Source of the DNA: Pseudomonadales bacterium
Lineage (GTDB): Bacteria; Pseudomonadota; Gammaproteobacteria; Pseudomonadales; Azotimanducaceae
DNA length: 38,109 nt
Assembly: GCA_028285415.1 (NCBI GenBank)
Contig: JANQPF010000018.1
Coordinates: forward strand, 1-38,109
Direction: 5' to 3'
In this document: positions 6,098-11,395 of the stretch, one piece after another
Layout: every line of letters starts with the position of its first letter
Position numbering within the stretch: position 1 is the first letter of the stretch
Program-made: the position numbers and the translations under genes
The notes under the pieces: generated by a model
The model's database searches: none
Told to the model about the DNA's origin: nothing
What the model saw: the letters and a program-made list of their open reading frames with translations, nothing else

Positions 6098-6655
6098 TTA
6101 CATGTCCGACTCGTACTCTTCGTCGCTCCGAAGGCCCTTGATGAAGCCCTCGAACGTATCGGCTAGAAAGGTAATCTTGTAGCCAAACTCCTGGTCAACA
6201 TGGACTACCTGCGGCCGGCCATCTCTACCGCAGTGTCGGTAGTCGAGACAGATCATGTCATGTCCCGCTGAAGGACAGTCACCGAAATAGACGCCAATGT
6301 CCGGATAACCCCATCGTTCGATCATGAACTGACTTCCGAAGTCACCGCACAGCGAATGCGCCTTGGAATCCCCGATACCCAGTATTCCGTGGATGGCGAC
6401 ATGATCCTCTGCCCAGGAAGTAGGTTCCGTCGCAGGAAACGCGGTTTTCTTTGGAAGTCCACCATTCTGATGGCGCATGAGTTCAACGTAAGCCTCAGGC
6501 AGCTTGTACCCCAATGCGCCCTCTACCCTGGCCACTGAAATATCGGTGGGCCGCGGAAGGACGTATTCCCTTTTTTCGTAGTCGGAATTCAGCCAGAAGT
6601 CGGCAAGATCAAACCCATCGAAGTAGCTCACAAACACCCCTCGGACAACGGTCAC
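6098..6655 (-). CDS. SMI1/KNR4 (SUKH) family protein
   Basis: A 185-residue SUKH-superfamily domain. The family hallmarks are the first helix leading to LGYKLPEAYVELMRHQNGG (about 50-68), the mid-region GILGIGDS, and the C-terminal part with DMICLDYRHCGRDG and PQVVHVDQE. SUKH proteins are often immunity proteins against polymorphic toxins, or housekeeping proteins of unknown role. No toxin gene lies beside it here. The start is GTG at 6655 and overlaps the stop of the upstream methyltransferase gene as GTGA, so the two are probably translated in a coupled way. The family is clear; the job is not. Confidence 0.82.
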   Translation of the reverse strand: MTVVRGVFVSYFDGFDLADFWLNSDYEKREYVLPRPTDISVARVEGALGYKLPEAYVELMRHQNGGLPKKTAFPATEPTSWAEDHVAIHGILGIGDSKAHSLCGDFGSQFMIERWGYPDIGVYFGDCPSAGHDMICLDYRHCGRDGRPQVVHVDQEFGYKITFLADTFEGFIKGLRSDEEYESDM

Positions 6656-7440
6656 TCAAGCGAGCGTATCCTGCCCCACTCAACACGCGACTGAACGCGA
6701 TAGGTCAGCATCCCGTCGCCGTCTGCGTGAGGCCCCACAACCTCTTGCAGATCGTTCGAGAACTCTTCCATTCTCGTTCCTAGTCGAGACGGGGCGAACG
6801 TGTCTCTCGAGTACTGACAAAAAACAAATTCGTCGACGGACTGCGTGAACGTGAGTTCAAAAGAGGCATTCCCCTCCAAGCTCAACCAATCCTTGTGGCG
6901 CTCCATTTTCCTAGCGAAGGCTGAATCTTTGTTTCCGGGCTGGTAGCGCTCCCCCTTCAGTTCGAAAATCCACTTCGCCAAGAAAGCATCCCATTCTTCC
7001 TGCCAGGGTGGGAGATAAGCGTCGTCCCCTTCCACAACGGCAAATATGTGATTGTCGCGCACATGATTCAACAAACGAGGAAACAGCACTGCGTGATCCA
7101 TCCAATGGATGCTCGCGGCGGCAACAATCAAATCAAACGGCGGGCTACTAAAACTCGCTTCCTCAGCAAGACTACACACCCAGTCGATATTGGCGTGTCT
7201 CGACGACTGTAGCGCTTGCGCAACCGACAACATGGATTCGGATGGGTCGACAGCAGTGACGGCATCGAAGCGCTCACAGATCTTTCGAGCAATCTTCCCG
7301 GGACCACAACCTAGATCGAGAGCGCTGTGATGTTGCTCCGTAAGCTCATACAACTTCTCAAACAGCGCCGCAGGATAGGGCGGACGATATTTGTAGTGCT
7401 CGGCTACTTCTCTGCTTTCGAAAGACTGCCCCGGTCGCAT
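6652..7440 (-). CDS. class I SAM-dependent methyltransferase
   Basis: A 262-residue Rossmann-fold methyltransferase. Motif I is LDLGCGPG at 41-48. The acidic end of strand 2 is AVDPSESM at about 63-70, and a later strand is DLIVAAASIHWMD. These bind S-adenosylmethionine. The pattern near the start (YRPPYPAALFEKL) is that of methyltransferases acting on small molecules such as trans-aconitate or lipids; the substrate cannot be read from sequence. It overlaps the SUKH gene by four bases and is the first gene of that pair. Confidence 0.85.
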   Translation of the reverse strand: MRPGQSFESREVAEHYKYRPPYPAALFEKLYELTEQHHSALDLGCGPGKIARKICERFDAVTAVDPSESMLSVAQALQSSRHANIDWVCSLAEEASFSSPPFDLIVAAASIHWMDHAVLFPRLLNHVRDNHIFAVVEGDDAYLPPWQEEWDAFLAKWIFELKGERYQPGNKDSAFARKMERHKDWLSLEGNASFELTFTQSVDEFVFCQYSRDTFAPSRLGTRMEEFSNDLQEVVGPHADGDGMLTYRVQSRVEWGRIRSLE

Positions 7441-7536: not shown

Positions 7537-8343
7537 TCAGAAACTGATTTCCGTGTGAAACTCTCCGTTCTCCCCAAAGGCATCAATATGCGGAGCGAGC
7601 CGGGCTATGAACCCGCGATCGAACCGATCACCCACGTTGATACCCTCATCAGCTACCGTGACGGCGCTTACCGAACATGCGACGCCGGATGCAGCGAGAT
7701 CATGCAACAAAATATCGTACGCAATCTGCCAGATTGGAAACTTCAGATTCAGATGCTCGGTCCGGGCGTCCTCGCCGAACGCTCGCTCACGCCAGCTGCG
7801 GATGTGCTCGAGATGAAGGTCGCCGAACGCCAGTGAGCCGACGGAGGGCATCAGCTCCAGGCCGAGCACAACGTGATCCAGATAGTCGAGATTCGAATGC
7901 AGGGGGATACCAATCAAGGGGGCATTCAGATGCTTCGCCTGCGCCACGACGGTTTCGATTGGCAGATCCTGATGGGCAATCTGTCCCGTTGATCGATCAA
8001 ACGTCGTGATCAGCACAATCTCGTCATGATCGTTCGCCCTGGTCAGCGATCGATACGCCAGATAGCTGTCCTTGCCGCCGCTCCAGAACAAACCGCAACC
8101 TTGCTCAGAATCAGACGCACGTCCGTTGAGCCAGGCAGGCTGCTGTATCCGTCCCGGCCGGCTTTCCATCGGCACGGAGGCATGATGGTACGGGCAGTGC
8201 CTGCATCCGGCGCCGCAGCACTGGCCTCTTTCCAGCAGCCCCAGGCGGGTGAACACCTGGAATCCGGTGGTCGGGTCGACGTAAGAGAGCGCGCCGTCTC
8301 GACACGCCGCTTCGTGTACCGCAAAAACGTCCGGGTCAGGCAC
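7537..8343 (-). CDS. DUF5522 domain fused to a Dph6-like ATP pyrophosphatase
   Basis: A 268-residue two-domain protein. Residues 20-55 are a DUF5522-type Cys-rich unit (YVDPTTGFQVFTRL, then CCGAGCRHCPYHH), probably metal binding. Residues 84-268 are an adenine-nucleotide alpha-hydrolase (PP-loop) domain: SGGKDS at 88-93, the middle block FGDLHLEHIRSWRER and the terminal GENGEFHTEIS at 257-267, which is a signature of diphthine-ammonia ligase (Dph6). Dph6 uses ATP to amidate a carboxylate; bacteria have no diphthamide, so the substrate must differ. The gene ends a cobalamin-riboswitch operon and overlaps the upstream BtuF-like gene by 8 bases (GTG start at 8343). A role in corrinoid uptake or side-chain amidation is my inference, not shown. 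Confidence 0.82.
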   Translation of the reverse strand: MPDPDVFAVHEAACRDGALSYVDPTTGFQVFTRLGLLERGQCCGAGCRHCPYHHASVPMESRPGRIQQPAWLNGRASDSEQGCGLFWSGGKDSYLAYRSLTRANDHDEIVLITTFDRSTGQIAHQDLPIETVVAQAKHLNAPLIGIPLHSNLDYLDHVVLGLELMPSVGSLAFGDLHLEHIRSWRERAFGEDARTEHLNLKFPIWQIAYDILLHDLAASGVACSVSAVTVADEGINVGDRFDRGFIARLAPHIDAFGENGEFHTEISF

Positions 8344-9151
8344 TCAAGCACTCACCGATCGTGCGGTCGAGCACCGCGATGCTTTCCATCAGCACCGGGC
8401 TGGGTCGACTGAAGTGCTGGTACCCATCGAGGCAAACGATGTCCAGGGGTGCATCGTTCGCTTCCCGCGCAATACGCGTCTCATCAAATCCGCAACAGGC
8501 GGCCAGCACAACGTCAGGCCGTGCGTTTGTTACTTCCGCCCAGCTGAGCGCGTAAGACGGTTGTCCTGATTGCGCAAGTACGCTCACCCCACCCAGCCAT
8601 TCGATCAGATCCGGCACCCAGTGCCCCGCTGCGAACGGCGGTTCCAGCCAATCCAGAAAGGCAATTCGGGGTTTGGCGGACGCGTACTTCAATCGGTATT
8701 GGCCGAAGGTTTCGTGCCAGGTACTTTGCAGCGCTCTTGCTGCCTCCGGCCGACCGATGATGTCCCCGACAACGGTGAAGTCCAGCGGCACCTCGGCAAG
8801 ACGCTGCGGTGACAAATCCAACAGCACGGGAGCGTTCGGCAACGCGCGAATCGCCTCTTCCACGCTGCCGGCCGGAATGGCACAAACCTCGCATAGTGAC
8901 TGGCTCACGATGACGTCCGGCGCGAGCGCTTCGAGCAGTTCCAGATTGAGCTCGTAAAGCGGTTGTGAAGCGTTACGCACCTGCTCATCGATCTCGTCGC
9001 TCGAAACCGAGGTATCAATCCAGGTGCGGGTCAGCTGAGGTACGTCGGACCATTCTGAACCACAGCTGTGACTGACCCCCACCACCTGATCGGTGGCGCC
9101 CAACGCAACCAGTATGTCAGTGGCGCTCGGCAGCAGCGAAACGATCCGCAC
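8336..9151 (-). CDS. cobalamin-binding protein, BtuF-like, without signal peptide
   Basis: A 271-residue protein of the class III substrate-binding fold used by BtuF/FhuD. It begins RIVSLLPSATDILVALGATD and has the ligand-cleft segment VGVSHSCGSEW. A second block is LAPDVIVSQSLCEVCA (about 97-112), and the later block PDVVLAACCGFDE. The protein starts directly at the first beta-strand with no export signal. An in-frame stop (TAA, 9163-9161) lies only three codons before the GTG at 9151, so no longer form can exist. The start has an AGGGAAATCC ribosome site. It overlaps the upstream transporter by 35 bases. Corrinoid binding follows from the fold and the riboswitch; a cytoplasmic location is unlike true BtuF. 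Confidence 0.85.
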   Translation of the reverse strand: MRIVSLLPSATDILVALGATDQVVGVSHSCGSEWSDVPQLTRTWIDTSVSSDEIDEQVRNASQPLYELNLELLEALAPDVIVSQSLCEVCAIPAGSVEEAIRALPNAPVLLDLSPQRLAEVPLDFTVVGDIIGRPEAARALQSTWHETFGQYRLKYASAKPRIAFLDWLEPPFAAGHWVPDLIEWLGGVSVLAQSGQPSYALSWAEVTNARPDVVLAACCGFDETRIAREANDAPLDIVCLDGYQHFSRPSPVLMESIAVLDRTIGECLSA

Positions 9152-9647
9152 GGATTTCCCTTACTAACCAGATGACACCGAAAGCACAACCGCCAAAGAG
9201 AAGGTTCGCCAGCACGCCGCGCCACAAGAACGGCAGTCCGTTCACGTAGCAGGCGATCCAGCCCTCCAGCGTCCCCGGGTAGTAACCCATGGCCATCGGC
9301 GTCAAATGACTGAGGAGATAGAACACGATGGCGCTTGCGAGGCTCGCACCCAGAACCGCGGATGGTTTTACGACGCCGAGAATGGGGCGCGTTGCGTATG
9401 CCGCCGCAACATGTGCGAGGTAGACGAAACTCATCGCCAGAACGGCGTAAAACCCGTTCACCGCGTCAGCGACCAGGACCGTCGCAAGTGCCGGTACACC
9501 GATGAGGTATCGAGGGAGATAGGCGGCCGAAAGCATGCCAATTGCCCCCACGGTTGAGATCCCCATTTCGTGTGGGATCAGATGGGTGATGATGCCAAGG
9601 ACAGTACAGCCAACCAGGATCAGGCTGGTGCGCGCATGATGATGCAT
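9117..9647 (-). CDS. small membrane transport protein, DUF6580-like, putative corrinoid transporter
   Basis: A 176-residue, very hydrophobic protein with about five or six membrane helices (for example ILVGCTVLGIITHLI, VGAIGMLSAAYL, LIGVPALATVLVADAVNG, AVLGASLASAIVFYLL and VLANLLFGGCAFGVIWL). It resembles the DUF6580 family and, in size and topology, the S-components of ECF vitamin transporters. It is the first gene after a cobalamin riboswitch, so it probably brings in cobalamin or a precursor. No ECF ATPase or T-component is seen nearby. The ATG at 9647 follows CGGAG at a normal distance. The family match is from memory of the pattern; function comes from context. Confidence 0.72.
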   Translation of the reverse strand: MHHHARTSLILVGCTVLGIITHLIPHEMGISTVGAIGMLSAAYLPRYLIGVPALATVLVADAVNGFYAVLAMSFVYLAHVAAAYATRPILGVVKPSAVLGASLASAIVFYLLSHLTPMAMGYYPGTLEGWIACYVNGLPFLWRGVLANLLFGGCAFGVIWLVREIRADRFAAAERH

Positions 9648-9691
9648 GTTGAAACTCCGTAGGCCGCCATTCCTCGGACGGGGAAGTTGAA

Positions 9692-9836
9692 CCTGTTCGG
9701 CCGGTCTCCGGACTGACGAGTATGAGCTTTTGCCACCTTCCCATCCCGAGGGACAGTGGTATTCAGCAAAAAGCCACTCGATTACCGTTGCGAGGACAGT
9801 GTCGGAGTTGCGCCGACTTCCCGTTCACCGAACTGG
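9692..9836 (-). promoter_or_regulatory. cobalamin riboswitch aptamer
   Basis: The minus-strand leader of the transporter operon has the conserved parts of the adenosylcobalamin riboswitch in order: GGGAAGTCGG with its partner CTCCGAC, the core CGCAACGGTAA, CCACTGT then GGGAAGGTGGC, and the B12 box AGTCCGGAGACCGGCC at 9714-9699. The closing stem P1 is visible: GTTCGG (9833-9828) pairs with CCGAAC (9700-9695), extended after one mismatch by CC/GG. The distance from the aptamer end to the ATG at 9647 is about 45 bases and there is no terminator-like U run, so control of ribosome access is more likely than termination. Confidence 0.93.
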
Positions 9837-9953: not shown

Positions 9954-10511
9954 ATGACTTCAGTTGTAAAAATAGCCACACCCGACGCCATTGCCGAAGC
10001 GGGGTTCCGCGTATTGAGCCGCAACCCCGGCGCCAACCTGGCGGAAGTGGCCAACGCAGCGGGCATCACGCGCGCGACCCTGCATCGCTACTTCCCTTCC
10101 CGGCAGGCGCTGACGGCGGAACTCGCGCAACGCGCCATCCAGGAGATGGAAGACGCCGTCGAGATCGCCTGTGCAAACTCCACAACCGCAGGCGCGGCAC
10201 TCAGGGATTCGCTGATCGCGCTGATCCCTCTGGGTGATCGCTATGGCTTCCTCGCACACGAGGAGCTCAACCATGACGCAGCGATCGAGGCTGAGTTTCT
10301 GAGAATTCAGGCTGAAACCTCCGAGTGGATCGAAGCGGCAAAGCTCGAGGGGGTTTTCGACCACGCCGTGCCTACAGCGTGGATTAACCGCGCGTACGAT
10401 TACTTGTTGTACAGCGCCTGGGACAGCGTTCGCGCTGAGGAAACGACACCCAATCAGGCCGCAGACCTGGCCTGGCGTACGCTCACTTCCGGACTGGGAA
10501 CTGCAACATGA
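9954..10511 (+). CDS. TetR/AcrR-family regulator
   Basis: A 185-residue regulator. The N-terminal helix-turn-helix occupies about residues 8-55 (DAIAEAGFRVLSRNPGANLA, then GITRATLHRYFPSR, the TetR recognition helix). The C-terminal ligand domain is all helical and shows no recognisable subtype. The reading frame ends in a four-base overlap (ATGA) with the sterol-desaturase-family gene, so regulator and enzyme are made from one message. It probably represses its own operon. The inducer is unknown; a lipid or hydrophobic compound would fit the next gene. Confidence 0.85.
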   Translation: MTSVVKIATPDAIAEAGFRVLSRNPGANLAEVANAAGITRATLHRYFPSRQALTAELAQRAIQEMEDAVEIACANSTTAGAALRDSLIALIPLGDRYGFLAHEELNHDAAIEAEFLRIQAETSEWIEAAKLEGVFDHAVPTAWINRAYDYLLYSAWDSVRAEETTPNQAADLAWRTLTSGLGTAT

Positions 10512-11395
10512 CAACCATTGATGTTGACGCGCTGGGCGTGGCCGTAGATGACGCCTCCTATCTGGCCGCAGGCCTTGTACTCGTCTATGAGCTGATTGTC
10601 GGGCTGCAGCACAAACGCTTACGGTTGCGAACCTTTCAGGACATGTTTGCAAGCATCTCGACAACGCTACCGTACCTTCTGGTTGAGATCTTCATCCTTG
10701 GCTTCGTCTACCTCGGCTTCGTATACGTCAGCGACGCCTGGGTAACATGGTCCATGCCCATCAATGCCTGGACGATCGCGGCAGCCCTGCTTGCCTGCGA
10801 TTTTGTCTACTACTGGGAGCATCGACTCGCGCACGAGGTTCGGCTGCTGTGGACACAACATGCCGTGCACCACTCCTCGCGCTACATGAACGTTCTGGTG
10901 GCGTTCCGGTTCGGACCGTTCGAGGGCGCCATATCCGGCATTATCCACCTCCCACTGGTCCTCATCGGGTTTCCACCCGAGCTCGTATTCTTCGGCATTC
11001 TGGCGGTGCTCGCCTACCAGGGGTGGATTCACACCGAGTCCATCGGCCGTCTGGGATTCCTGGATCAGATACTGAACACCCCGTCGAATCACCGCGTCCA
11101 TCATGGATGTGACGATAAATACCTGGACAAGAACTATGGCGGGATACTGATTATCTGGGACCGCCTCTTCGGCACCTACCAGGCAGAGGAAGAGCATCCC
11201 CGCTTCGGGCTGAAACGGGATTTCGACAGCGTCAATCCCCTGCGAGTCTGGATATCAGAGTGGCCGGGCTTGTTCCGGGATCTGAGGTCATCAACCTCTT
11301 TCGGTGACGCGCTCATGATCCTCTTTGCCCACCCCGATTGGCTTGCAAAACAAGGTGTACAGAGGCGGAGCGCCAACGCGCCGCAGGTCCAATGA
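10508..11395 (+). CDS. sterol desaturase/fatty acid hydroxylase family protein
   Basis: A 295-residue integral-membrane di-iron enzyme. The eight-histidine pattern is complete in three blocks: His105-xxx-His109 (WEHRLAH), His118-xx-His121-His122 (HAVHHSS) and His195-xx-His198-His199 (HRVHHG), with His175 in WIHTES. Hydrophobic helices lie at about 17-33, 54-75, 87-101 and 143-172. The family hydroxylates or desaturates sterols, alkylglycerols, carotenoids or fatty acids using O2; which of these is not decided by the motifs. It is the middle gene of a TetR-enzyme-ABC membrane protein operon with ATGA overlaps on both sides. Confidence 0.9.
   Translation: MTTIDVDALGVAVDDASYLAAGLVLVYELIVGLQHKRLRLRTFQDMFASISTTLPYLLVEIFILGFVYLGFVYVSDAWVTWSMPINAWTIAAALLACDFVYYWEHRLAHEVRLLWTQHAVHHSSRYMNVLVAFRFGPFEGAISGIIHLPLVLIGFPPELVFFGILAVLAYQGWIHTESIGRLGFLDQILNTPSNHRVHHGCDDKYLDKNYGGILIIWDRLFGTYQAEEEHPRFGLKRDFDSVNPLRVWISEWPGLFRDLRSSTSFGDALMILFAHPDWLAKQGVQRRSANAPQVQ

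Follow-up and report, generated by a model that had tools for sequence, protein, structure and literature searches.

A cobalamin riboswitch operon with a cytosolic BtuF-like protein and a DUF5522::DUF71 fusion enzyme as a probable corrinoid-handling module

A three-gene operon in a Pseudomonadales bacterium (contig JANQPF010000018.1; the whole stretch of 38,109 nucleotides analysed is called here the window) raises the question of what a relative of the diphthine-ammonia ligase Dph6 does under the control of vitamin B12, bacteria being described as lacking diphthamide (PMC3541065). Behind a cobalamin riboswitch, the operon encodes a small membrane protein of the DUF6580 family, a BtuF-like protein without signal peptide, and a fusion of a DUF5522 domain to a Dph6-type PP-loop domain (DUF71). 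The module very probably handles corrinoids, and a corrinoid-related role of its PP-loop enzyme is probable. By homology to Dph6, the likeliest reaction would be amide formation on a corrinoid carboxylate, to which a probability of roughly 0.4 is given. A preliminary description of this DNA had supposed that damaged or incompletely amidated corrinoids are bound in the cytoplasm by the BtuF-like protein and re-amidated by the fusion, and this supposition appears plausible.

The riboswitch aptamer (RF00174; 9682..9847, minus strand) was found by cmscan over the full model, positions 1-189, with 95.8 bits against a gathering threshold of 31.5 and an E value of 7.9e-23; it is therefore a full-length cobalamin riboswitch by this measure. 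A leader of 34 bases, read from the sequence (9648..9681, minus strand), leads to the start codon of the DUF6580 gene (9117..9647; 176 amino acids; PF20221, 92.1 bits). This gene overlaps by 35 bases that of the BtuF-like protein (8336..9151; 271 amino acids; Peripla_BP_2, PF01497, 60.6 bits), which in turn overlaps by 8 bases that of the fusion (7537..8343; 268 amino acids; PF17653, 72.5 bits, and PF01902, 34.9 bits), all three open reading frames being on the minus strand. The riboswitch heading three overlapping genes, the missing export signal and the fusion had thus been recognised correctly in the preliminary description. The riboswitch and the same three genes are also present in two other genomes of the genus, with proteins 55-61% identical, so the operon is not due to chance, and the conserved, B12-controlled module is real. 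The GGAG preceding the DUF6580 ATG pairs with upstream bases in local folds of the leaders, the partners varying between folds, which may hint, as a guess, at translational control.

In the fusion, DUF5522 occupies residues 10-55 and the DUF71 domain (Diphthami_syn_2; cut-off 23.2 bits) residues 86-264; these were the only matches of the domain scan, and the CbiZ domain PF01955 was not among them. The PP-loop motif SGGKDS (residues 88-93) is intact in an alignment of all 11 fusions; this speaks more for a ligase that uses ATP than for a simple hydrolase. The motif ENGEFHT (residues 258-264) is kept in the same 11 as GENGEFHT. The DUF5522 part carries the motif CCGxGCRHCPYxH (encoded at 8182..8220, minus strand), and its cysteines C42, C43, C47 and C50 are invariant in the alignment, as is C223. 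A search of the PDB with the window fusion by itself gave nothing useful, and a profile of the fusions matched PF0828 (3rjz/3rk1; E 1.8e-6) and also PH1257. The structure model (predicted local distance difference test, pLDDT, 81; residues 40-57 of DUF5522 unresolved) matched PH1257 (2d13) in Foldseek with E 4e-7. The likeness to Dph6 (PF0828, 3rk1) consists of this profile match and the PP-loop; the difference is that ENGEFH stands where Dph6 has EGGE/DxE. The score against the Dph6 family TIGR03679 is 17.7 bits for a cut-off of 197.3, so that the fusion is no Dph6 by motif or by score.

A B12 role for a subgroup of DUF71/COG2102, named DUF71-B12, was published in 2012 by de Crecy-Lagard (PMC3541065), where a role like that of bacterial CbiZ, as an amidohydrolase feeding CbiB, is cautiously proposed. 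Since that link is already in print, novelty of the operon through a B12-linked PP-loop protein was rejected: the kind of system is known and its reaction is unsolved. The fusion resembles the subgroup in its PF01902 domain with SGGKDS, in ENGEF/YH replacing EGGE/DxE, in its clustering with B12 uptake and transport genes, and in the absence of CbiZ. It differs in being fused to DUF5522, in having a signal-less, Cys-rich BtuF as partner, in a very long branch to its unfused relatives, and in the lack of CbiB from the operon genomes; the presence of CbiB in CbiZ-less bacteria, given in the 2012 paper as a tendency and not as a strict definition, does not extend to them. No later test of the DUF71-B12 reaction was found in the literature searched, which included passages of PMC5481537, PMC8305020 and PMC7733943, and a search on corrinoid-acid amidation in salvage returned general papers only. 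What is new are the partners DUF5522, DUF6580 and Cys-rich cytosolic BtuF, and the presence in genomes unable to rebuild corrinoids.

The BtuF-like protein belongs with BtuF to the Peripla_BP_2 family, and a profile of 10 relatives matches the vitamin B12-binding structures 5ysc, 1n4a and 1n2z, as well as binders of haem, iron complexes and other metal chelates. It differs from BtuF in its score against the BtuF equivalog (26.3 bits, cut-off 234), in four cysteines (C30, C87, C90 and C220) conserved without exception in all 10 aligned proteins, and in the absence of a signal peptide. Such a peptide is impossible here, because an in-frame TAA lies four codons 5′ of the start and the protein begins directly with the fold's first strand. 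The four cysteines follow core strands of both lobes and, by this position, probably face the cleft. Among 370 gammaproteobacterial genomes, the cytosolic BtuF (E 1e-25) was found in eight, one of them (G389) with a weak partial match, in a search that scored at most six candidates per genome and may undercount. With G389 left out, DUF71 and cytosolic BtuF co-occur in four genomes against 0.8 expected (p 0.004). In each of these (G000, G170, G207 and G296) DUF71 is adjacent and a full-score CbiB is lacking, whereas the three genomes without DUF71 (G094, G191 and G223) have CbiB, in pieces in G223; the split, 3/3 against 0/4, would arise by simple counting 1 time in 35 and is suggestive but post hoc. 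A BtuF-like fold outside the bacterial periplasm is also described, from a predicted structure, for the algal B12-uptake protein CBA1 (PMC10828217). By this description, on which the comparison rests, CBA1 differs in having a signal peptide and in targeting secretory-path membranes.

Ordinary B12 uptake seems to be present and under separate control in the window genome, where two additional cobalamin riboswitches stand before a gene for a BtuB-like receptor and before BtuF-like, BtuC-like and BtuD-like genes. The BtuF-like protein of this set has a signal, judged by eye; BtuB and BtuC are named after their best NCBIfam models, whose cut-offs the scores do not reach. As these genes are already under two other riboswitches, the operon should serve something beyond ordinary uptake. 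Behind these btuFCD-like genes and their riboswitch comes a membrane-like protein that no NCBIfam model matches (L029:6740-7465).

The three operon genomes, 99, 98 and 96% complete (figures that cover these three among the fusion genomes), gave no match to CbiB, CbiZ or CobS and no CbiA/CbiP-type amidotransferase; weak GATase_3 matches in them were rejected as CbiA/CbiP, being HisH. By these markers, the three fusion genomes of the genus are corrinoid auxotrophs. CbiZ was found in none of the 40 genus genomes searched, and CbiB in two (G026 and G030), both with strong GATase_3 matches and CobS and without the fusion. Across the 11 fusion genomes, CbiB is unmatched in 10 and CobS is present in four; in the eleventh (G065), a CbiB match is limited to positions 1-111 of 282. 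This match forms the first part of a 642-amino-acid frame (L154:49-1977), the remainder of which has no Pfam or NCBIfam match, possibly owing to a metagenome-assembly frameshift.

In the wider class, full-score CbiB (279-330 bits) occurs in 1 of 43 DUF71-bearing Gammaproteobacteria versus 3 of 34 without DUF71, with no significance to the difference (p 0.32); the 43 comprise G044 and 42 of the 45 matching genomes, G000 and two that stay under the cut-off being excluded. In 28 others of the 43, CobD_Cbib matches are weak (about 20-73 bits), many of them above the Pfam cut-off. These were rejected as CbiB with less certainty, as five examined from DUF71-bearing genomes look AmpE-like or unassigned. 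When six weak matches, five of them from DUF71-bearing genomes, were put to Pfam, CobD_Cbib (56-78 bits) beat AmpE in all, and five also passed the AmpE cut-off. The best NCBIfam models for three of the weak matches were AmpE or "CobD/CbiB family protein", again below cut-off, and one of these three alone matched the CbiB equivalog (44.8 vs 165.9 bits).

The fusion occurs in 3 of 37 genus genomes searched (several incomplete), always with the riboswitch, DUF6580 and cytosolic BtuF. A collection of species genomes was scanned with two short DUF5522 peptide patterns, which are blind to unfused DUF71 and may miss fusions; 11 loci were obtained, of which 10 are fusions. Two belong to the genus, five are Nitrospinota-like (three labelled Nitrospinota/Nitrospinae and two grouping with them in the tree), and Verrucomicrobiota, Gemmatimonadetes and Myxococcota contribute one each. 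With the window counted, 8 of 11 fusions have a BtuF-like gene next to them, although the copy in L015 is cut by the contig end and its N-terminus is unseen. The preliminary description had suggested looking for the same gene order under riboswitches in other genomes; it recurs in the two further genus genomes, and the riboswitch is present in 3 of the 11 fusion loci. The eleventh locus of the scan is a stand-alone DUF5522 of 59 amino acids (L019:9926-10105), a single instance, 284 bases behind icmF; the latter encodes a fused B12-dependent isobutyryl-CoA mutase (NF045497, 1773 bits), so that here DUF5522 lies near a B12 enzyme without DUF71. Of 288 genomes from the phylum of G063 (Verrucomicrobiales; L143 and L144), three have DUF5522, as one DUF71 fusion and two short frames, the latter without DUF71 or BtuF-like match in the fetched flanks; a neighbour in L143 looks, by eye, presumably like a lactate-racemase-type protein.

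DUF71 scores above its cut-off in 43 of the 370 gammaproteobacterial genomes. Forty unfused loci were taken with flanks of up to 6 kb, several ended by contig edges. Profiles or single sequences were used for BtuF-like, BtuB, BtuC, BtuD, BtuR, PduO-type adenosyltransferase, CobS, CobT, CobU, CbiB, CobD, CobQ, DUF6580, DUF5522 and DUF71, weak BtuD matches being discarded; genes were six-frame open reading frames, with spurious long frames in GC-rich loci, where the named gene is the matched stretch. Linked genes were found in 13 of the 40 loci, less often than in the 2012 paper, where 75 of 102 DUF71-B12 genes adjoin B12 transporter genes (PMC3541065). In two of them (L076 and L095), riboswitch, BtuB, PduO-type adenosyltransferase and DUF71 follow in this order on a single strand, L095 having BtuC and BtuD as well; BtuB, BtuC and BtuD lie by DUF71 in L079. 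A divergent adenosyltransferase is seen in L083, divergent BtuF-like genes in L102 and L103 (both from one genus), DUF6580 in L100 and cytosolic BtuF in L101. In another family (L089), the order is riboswitch, BtuB, DUF6580, DUF71, cytosolic BtuF and adenosyltransferase, and in a third (L077) it is DUF71, cytosolic BtuF and DUF6580. Together with the window, DUF6580, cytosolic BtuF and DUF71 are thus kept in three differing orders, which argues for a working unit and not for one inherited gene string.

Unfused DUF5522 stands upstream of DUF71 in three loci: 26 bases ahead in L078, separated by a 135-amino-acid open reading frame in L085, and joined to a CWC domain in L088, where signal-less BtuF-like, CWC-DUF5522 and DUF71 genes follow with four-base overlaps each. 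The BtuF-like gene that precedes DUF5522 in L085 and L088 (L085:1448-2299, L088:5245-6054) is of a second signal-less type without the SHxC motif, so that two unlike signal-less BtuF types accompany DUF5522/DUF71. Since DUF5522 and DUF71 are adjacent and unfused in other families, the window fusion joins genes that stand together elsewhere. A scan for RNA families in 35 of the 40 loci (all except L064, L097, L099, L102 and L103) gave a cobalamin riboswitch in four (L076, L089, L092 and L095); that of L092, which is not among the 13 linked loci, points away. L089 also has an SAH riboswitch (L089:11409-11485), at a distance of about 2 kb from the operon with the cobalamin riboswitch. The motif ENGE(F/Y)H is present in 31 of the 40 loci, and the remaining nine (L065, L068, L074, L082, L088, L092, L093, L102 and L103) have a closely similar form of it, whatever the neighbours; the motif alone is therefore no mark of a B12 role. 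Unfused rows with a B12 link lie scattered over the tree, with 9 label changes against 11.1 in shuffles and 28 of 500 shuffles as low; the labels were made before DUF5522 was seen in L078 and the adenosyltransferase in L083.

For the DUF6580 protein of the window, six long helices and one short helix are predicted. The family has no match to solved structures by sequence search of the PDB, and none of the fold matches of its model reached E below 0.001; the most credible of them, the energy-coupling factor (ECF) S-component RibU (5kbw), stood at rank 3 in the fold comparison (probability 0.66, template-modelling score 0.54, E 1.5). It is small, membrane-bound and B12-regulated here, with some relatives near BtuB or adenosyltransferase, and it resembles in this BtuM, a solitary ECF S-component (PMC6072759), from which it differs in the lack of a sequence match to any solved structure and in the weakness of the fold match. 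A small inner-membrane corrinoid carrier, BtuM-like, is thus a fair guess. DUF6580 is present in 54 of the 370 genomes. In the 30 best-scoring loci, taken with 1.5-kb flanks, a PduO-type adenosyltransferase is near in 12 (all three that were put to Pfam were confirmed), and a further three have DUF71, two of them also with cytosolic BtuF; in a control with equal flanks, the adenosyltransferase is near in 2 of 30 DUF71 loci. In a count lacking the PduO-type query, DUF6580 had seemed largely unconnected with B12, a view overturned by the adenosyltransferase neighbours. No cobalamin riboswitch was found in the 30 short loci, and co-occurrence with DUF71 across the 370 genomes is not above expectation (8 against 6.3 expected, p 0.28). 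A literature search for DUF6580 and DUF5522 found no paper.

From these elements, a course of events may be proposed. Low intracellular B12 would let the riboswitch permit expression of the operon; the DUF6580 protein, probably a small carrier, would take up corrinoid, which the cytosolic BtuF-like protein with its invariant cysteines would receive inside the cell; and the DUF5522::DUF71 enzyme would activate a group on the intact corrinoid with ATP via its PP-loop. The reaction would be amide formation on a carboxylate side chain, restoring damaged or incompletely amidated corrinoids in cells unable to build them. Amidation would be the most natural reaction on intact corrinoids for a Dph6 relative, and a Glu-to-His change is among the reasons to hold it at the confidence given above. 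The full picture of cobamide repair or completion in a B12 auxotroph, with the Cys-rich BtuF presenting corrinoid acids, the ligase re-forming amides and DUF6580 as transporter, is more tentative and must be called doubtful.

Several observations weigh against amidation by this module. The proposed catalytic residue of Dph6, Glu188, is His in the fusion, and Pfam gave no glutaminase domain in any of the three operon proteins. All fusions group as a single clade (100/100), and about 2.8 changes per site separate it from 41 unfused DUF71 rows, a distance over which the function may have shifted; the two groups of this tree are the two sides of a midpoint root, it has no archaeal rows, its bootstrap is not fully settled, and two unfused rows have long branches. 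Three of the 11 fusion loci (L013, L017 and L018) have no BtuF-like gene in the fetched flanks, and seven have no riboswitch, the upstream side of an eighth (L015) lying beyond the fetched stretch. As the five Nitrospinota-like loci are closely related, the eight BtuF-linked fusions would represent about two independent lineages. The DUF6580 model is poor (pLDDT 68) and its fold match weak. Finally, 27 of the 40 unfused loci have none of the linked genes sought. The preliminary description had held that a PP-loop protein found mostly away from B12 genes would speak against it; the outcome is mixed, the fusion lying beside a BtuF-like gene in most loci but with the riboswitch in 3 of 11, and most unfused DUF71 loci having none of the genes sought.

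Other readings have been considered beside amidation. According to one, the DUF71-B12 protein substitutes for CbiZ, cleaving adenosyl-pseudocobalamin to cobyric acid, after which the loop with the correct lower ligand is rebuilt. The published adjacency to B12 transporter genes and, in 18 of 102 cases, to cbiB, the anti-correlation of DUF71-B12 with CbiZ in bacteria (PMC3541065), and the lack of CbiZ from the 40 genus genomes searched all accord with it. Rebuilding from cobyric acid, however, requires CbiB, which is found in none of the three operon genomes, as a partial match in one of the eight other fusion genomes, and at full score in one of the 43 Gammaproteobacteria described. The known remodelling enzymes CbiZ (PF01955) and CbiR (AP endonuclease 2 superfamily) are, like the window enzyme would be, accessory enzymes in cobamide salvage; they are of other families (PMC7733943), and remodelling depends on later assembly steps, for which the operon genomes give no match to CbiB or CobS. 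A reviewer in PMC3541065 doubts that a PP-loop enzyme acts as a hydrolase, to which its authors reply that one family can contain both ligases and hydrolases and that such shifts are not unprecedented. With no match to CbiB, CbiZ or CobS and no enzyme of the CbiA/CbiP type in the operon genomes, the product of a CbiZ-like cleaver could not be rebuilt, whereas a re-amidating enzyme would be without rival; substitution for CbiZ is distinctly unlikely, and in Gammaproteobacteria, for the fusion above all, action of the enzyme on intact corrinoids is the better fit.

A different PP-loop reaction, such as sulfur transfer or another activation of a corrinoid group with DUF5522 as carrier of sulfur or of a metal cluster, also seems quite unlikely. 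It would explain the invariant cysteines of DUF5522, C223 and the persistence of DUF5522 near DUF71 in three loci where the two are unfused, and PP-loop sulfurtransferases such as TtuA are among the lower-ranked fold matches; these matches are, however, at superfamily level only, alongside TilS, QueC and others, and DUF5522 also occurs by itself. Sulfurated corrinoids are not known, which weighs against sulfur transfer. It is somewhat less unlikely that the module serves ligand exchange or chaperoning, the Cys-rich cytosolic BtuF stripping the upper ligand and the ATPase helping to hand the corrinoid to adenosyltransferase or apo-enzymes, as the invariant BtuF cysteines, the adenosyltransferases near DUF71 and DUF6580, and the binding and decyanation of B12 by BtuM through a Cys (PMC6072759) would suggest; but ATP is not required for decyanation, and the Dph6-type active site is left unexplained. 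A PP-loop enzyme that modifies a partner protein or another non-corrinoid substrate, and is merely co-regulated by B12, is improbable: Dph6 itself works on a protein-bound carboxylate (PMC3541065), and the many unfused loci without B12 neighbours agree with such a role, yet the association with genes for corrinoid uptake and adenosylation recurs in differing orders.

Through the module, DUF5522, DUF6580 and a BtuF without signal peptide are connected with PP-loop proteins for which the B12 reaction had been left open in 2012, and the operon genomes are cases where the published CbiZ-like reaction should be useless. If repair or completion of corrinoids were true, DUF5522 and DUF6580 would acquire functions, and the CbiZ-like reading of DUF71-B12 would be superseded; with imported corrinoids repaired in the cell, the usable natural B12 pool might extend beyond cobalamin. 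Only about half of the bacteria auxotrophic for cobalamin are predicted to have BtuCDF (PMC6072759), so that further uptake and handling parts are still to be named.

Downstream of the operon and on its strand, the window encodes a SUKH/SMI1-KNR4 protein (6098-6655) and a methyltransferase (6652-7440) whose best NCBIfam model is BioC, below the cut-off; nothing was found tying these two genes to the operon. Upstream of the riboswitch, and divergent from it, lie genes for a TetR-type regulator and a fatty-acid hydroxylase (9954-11395).

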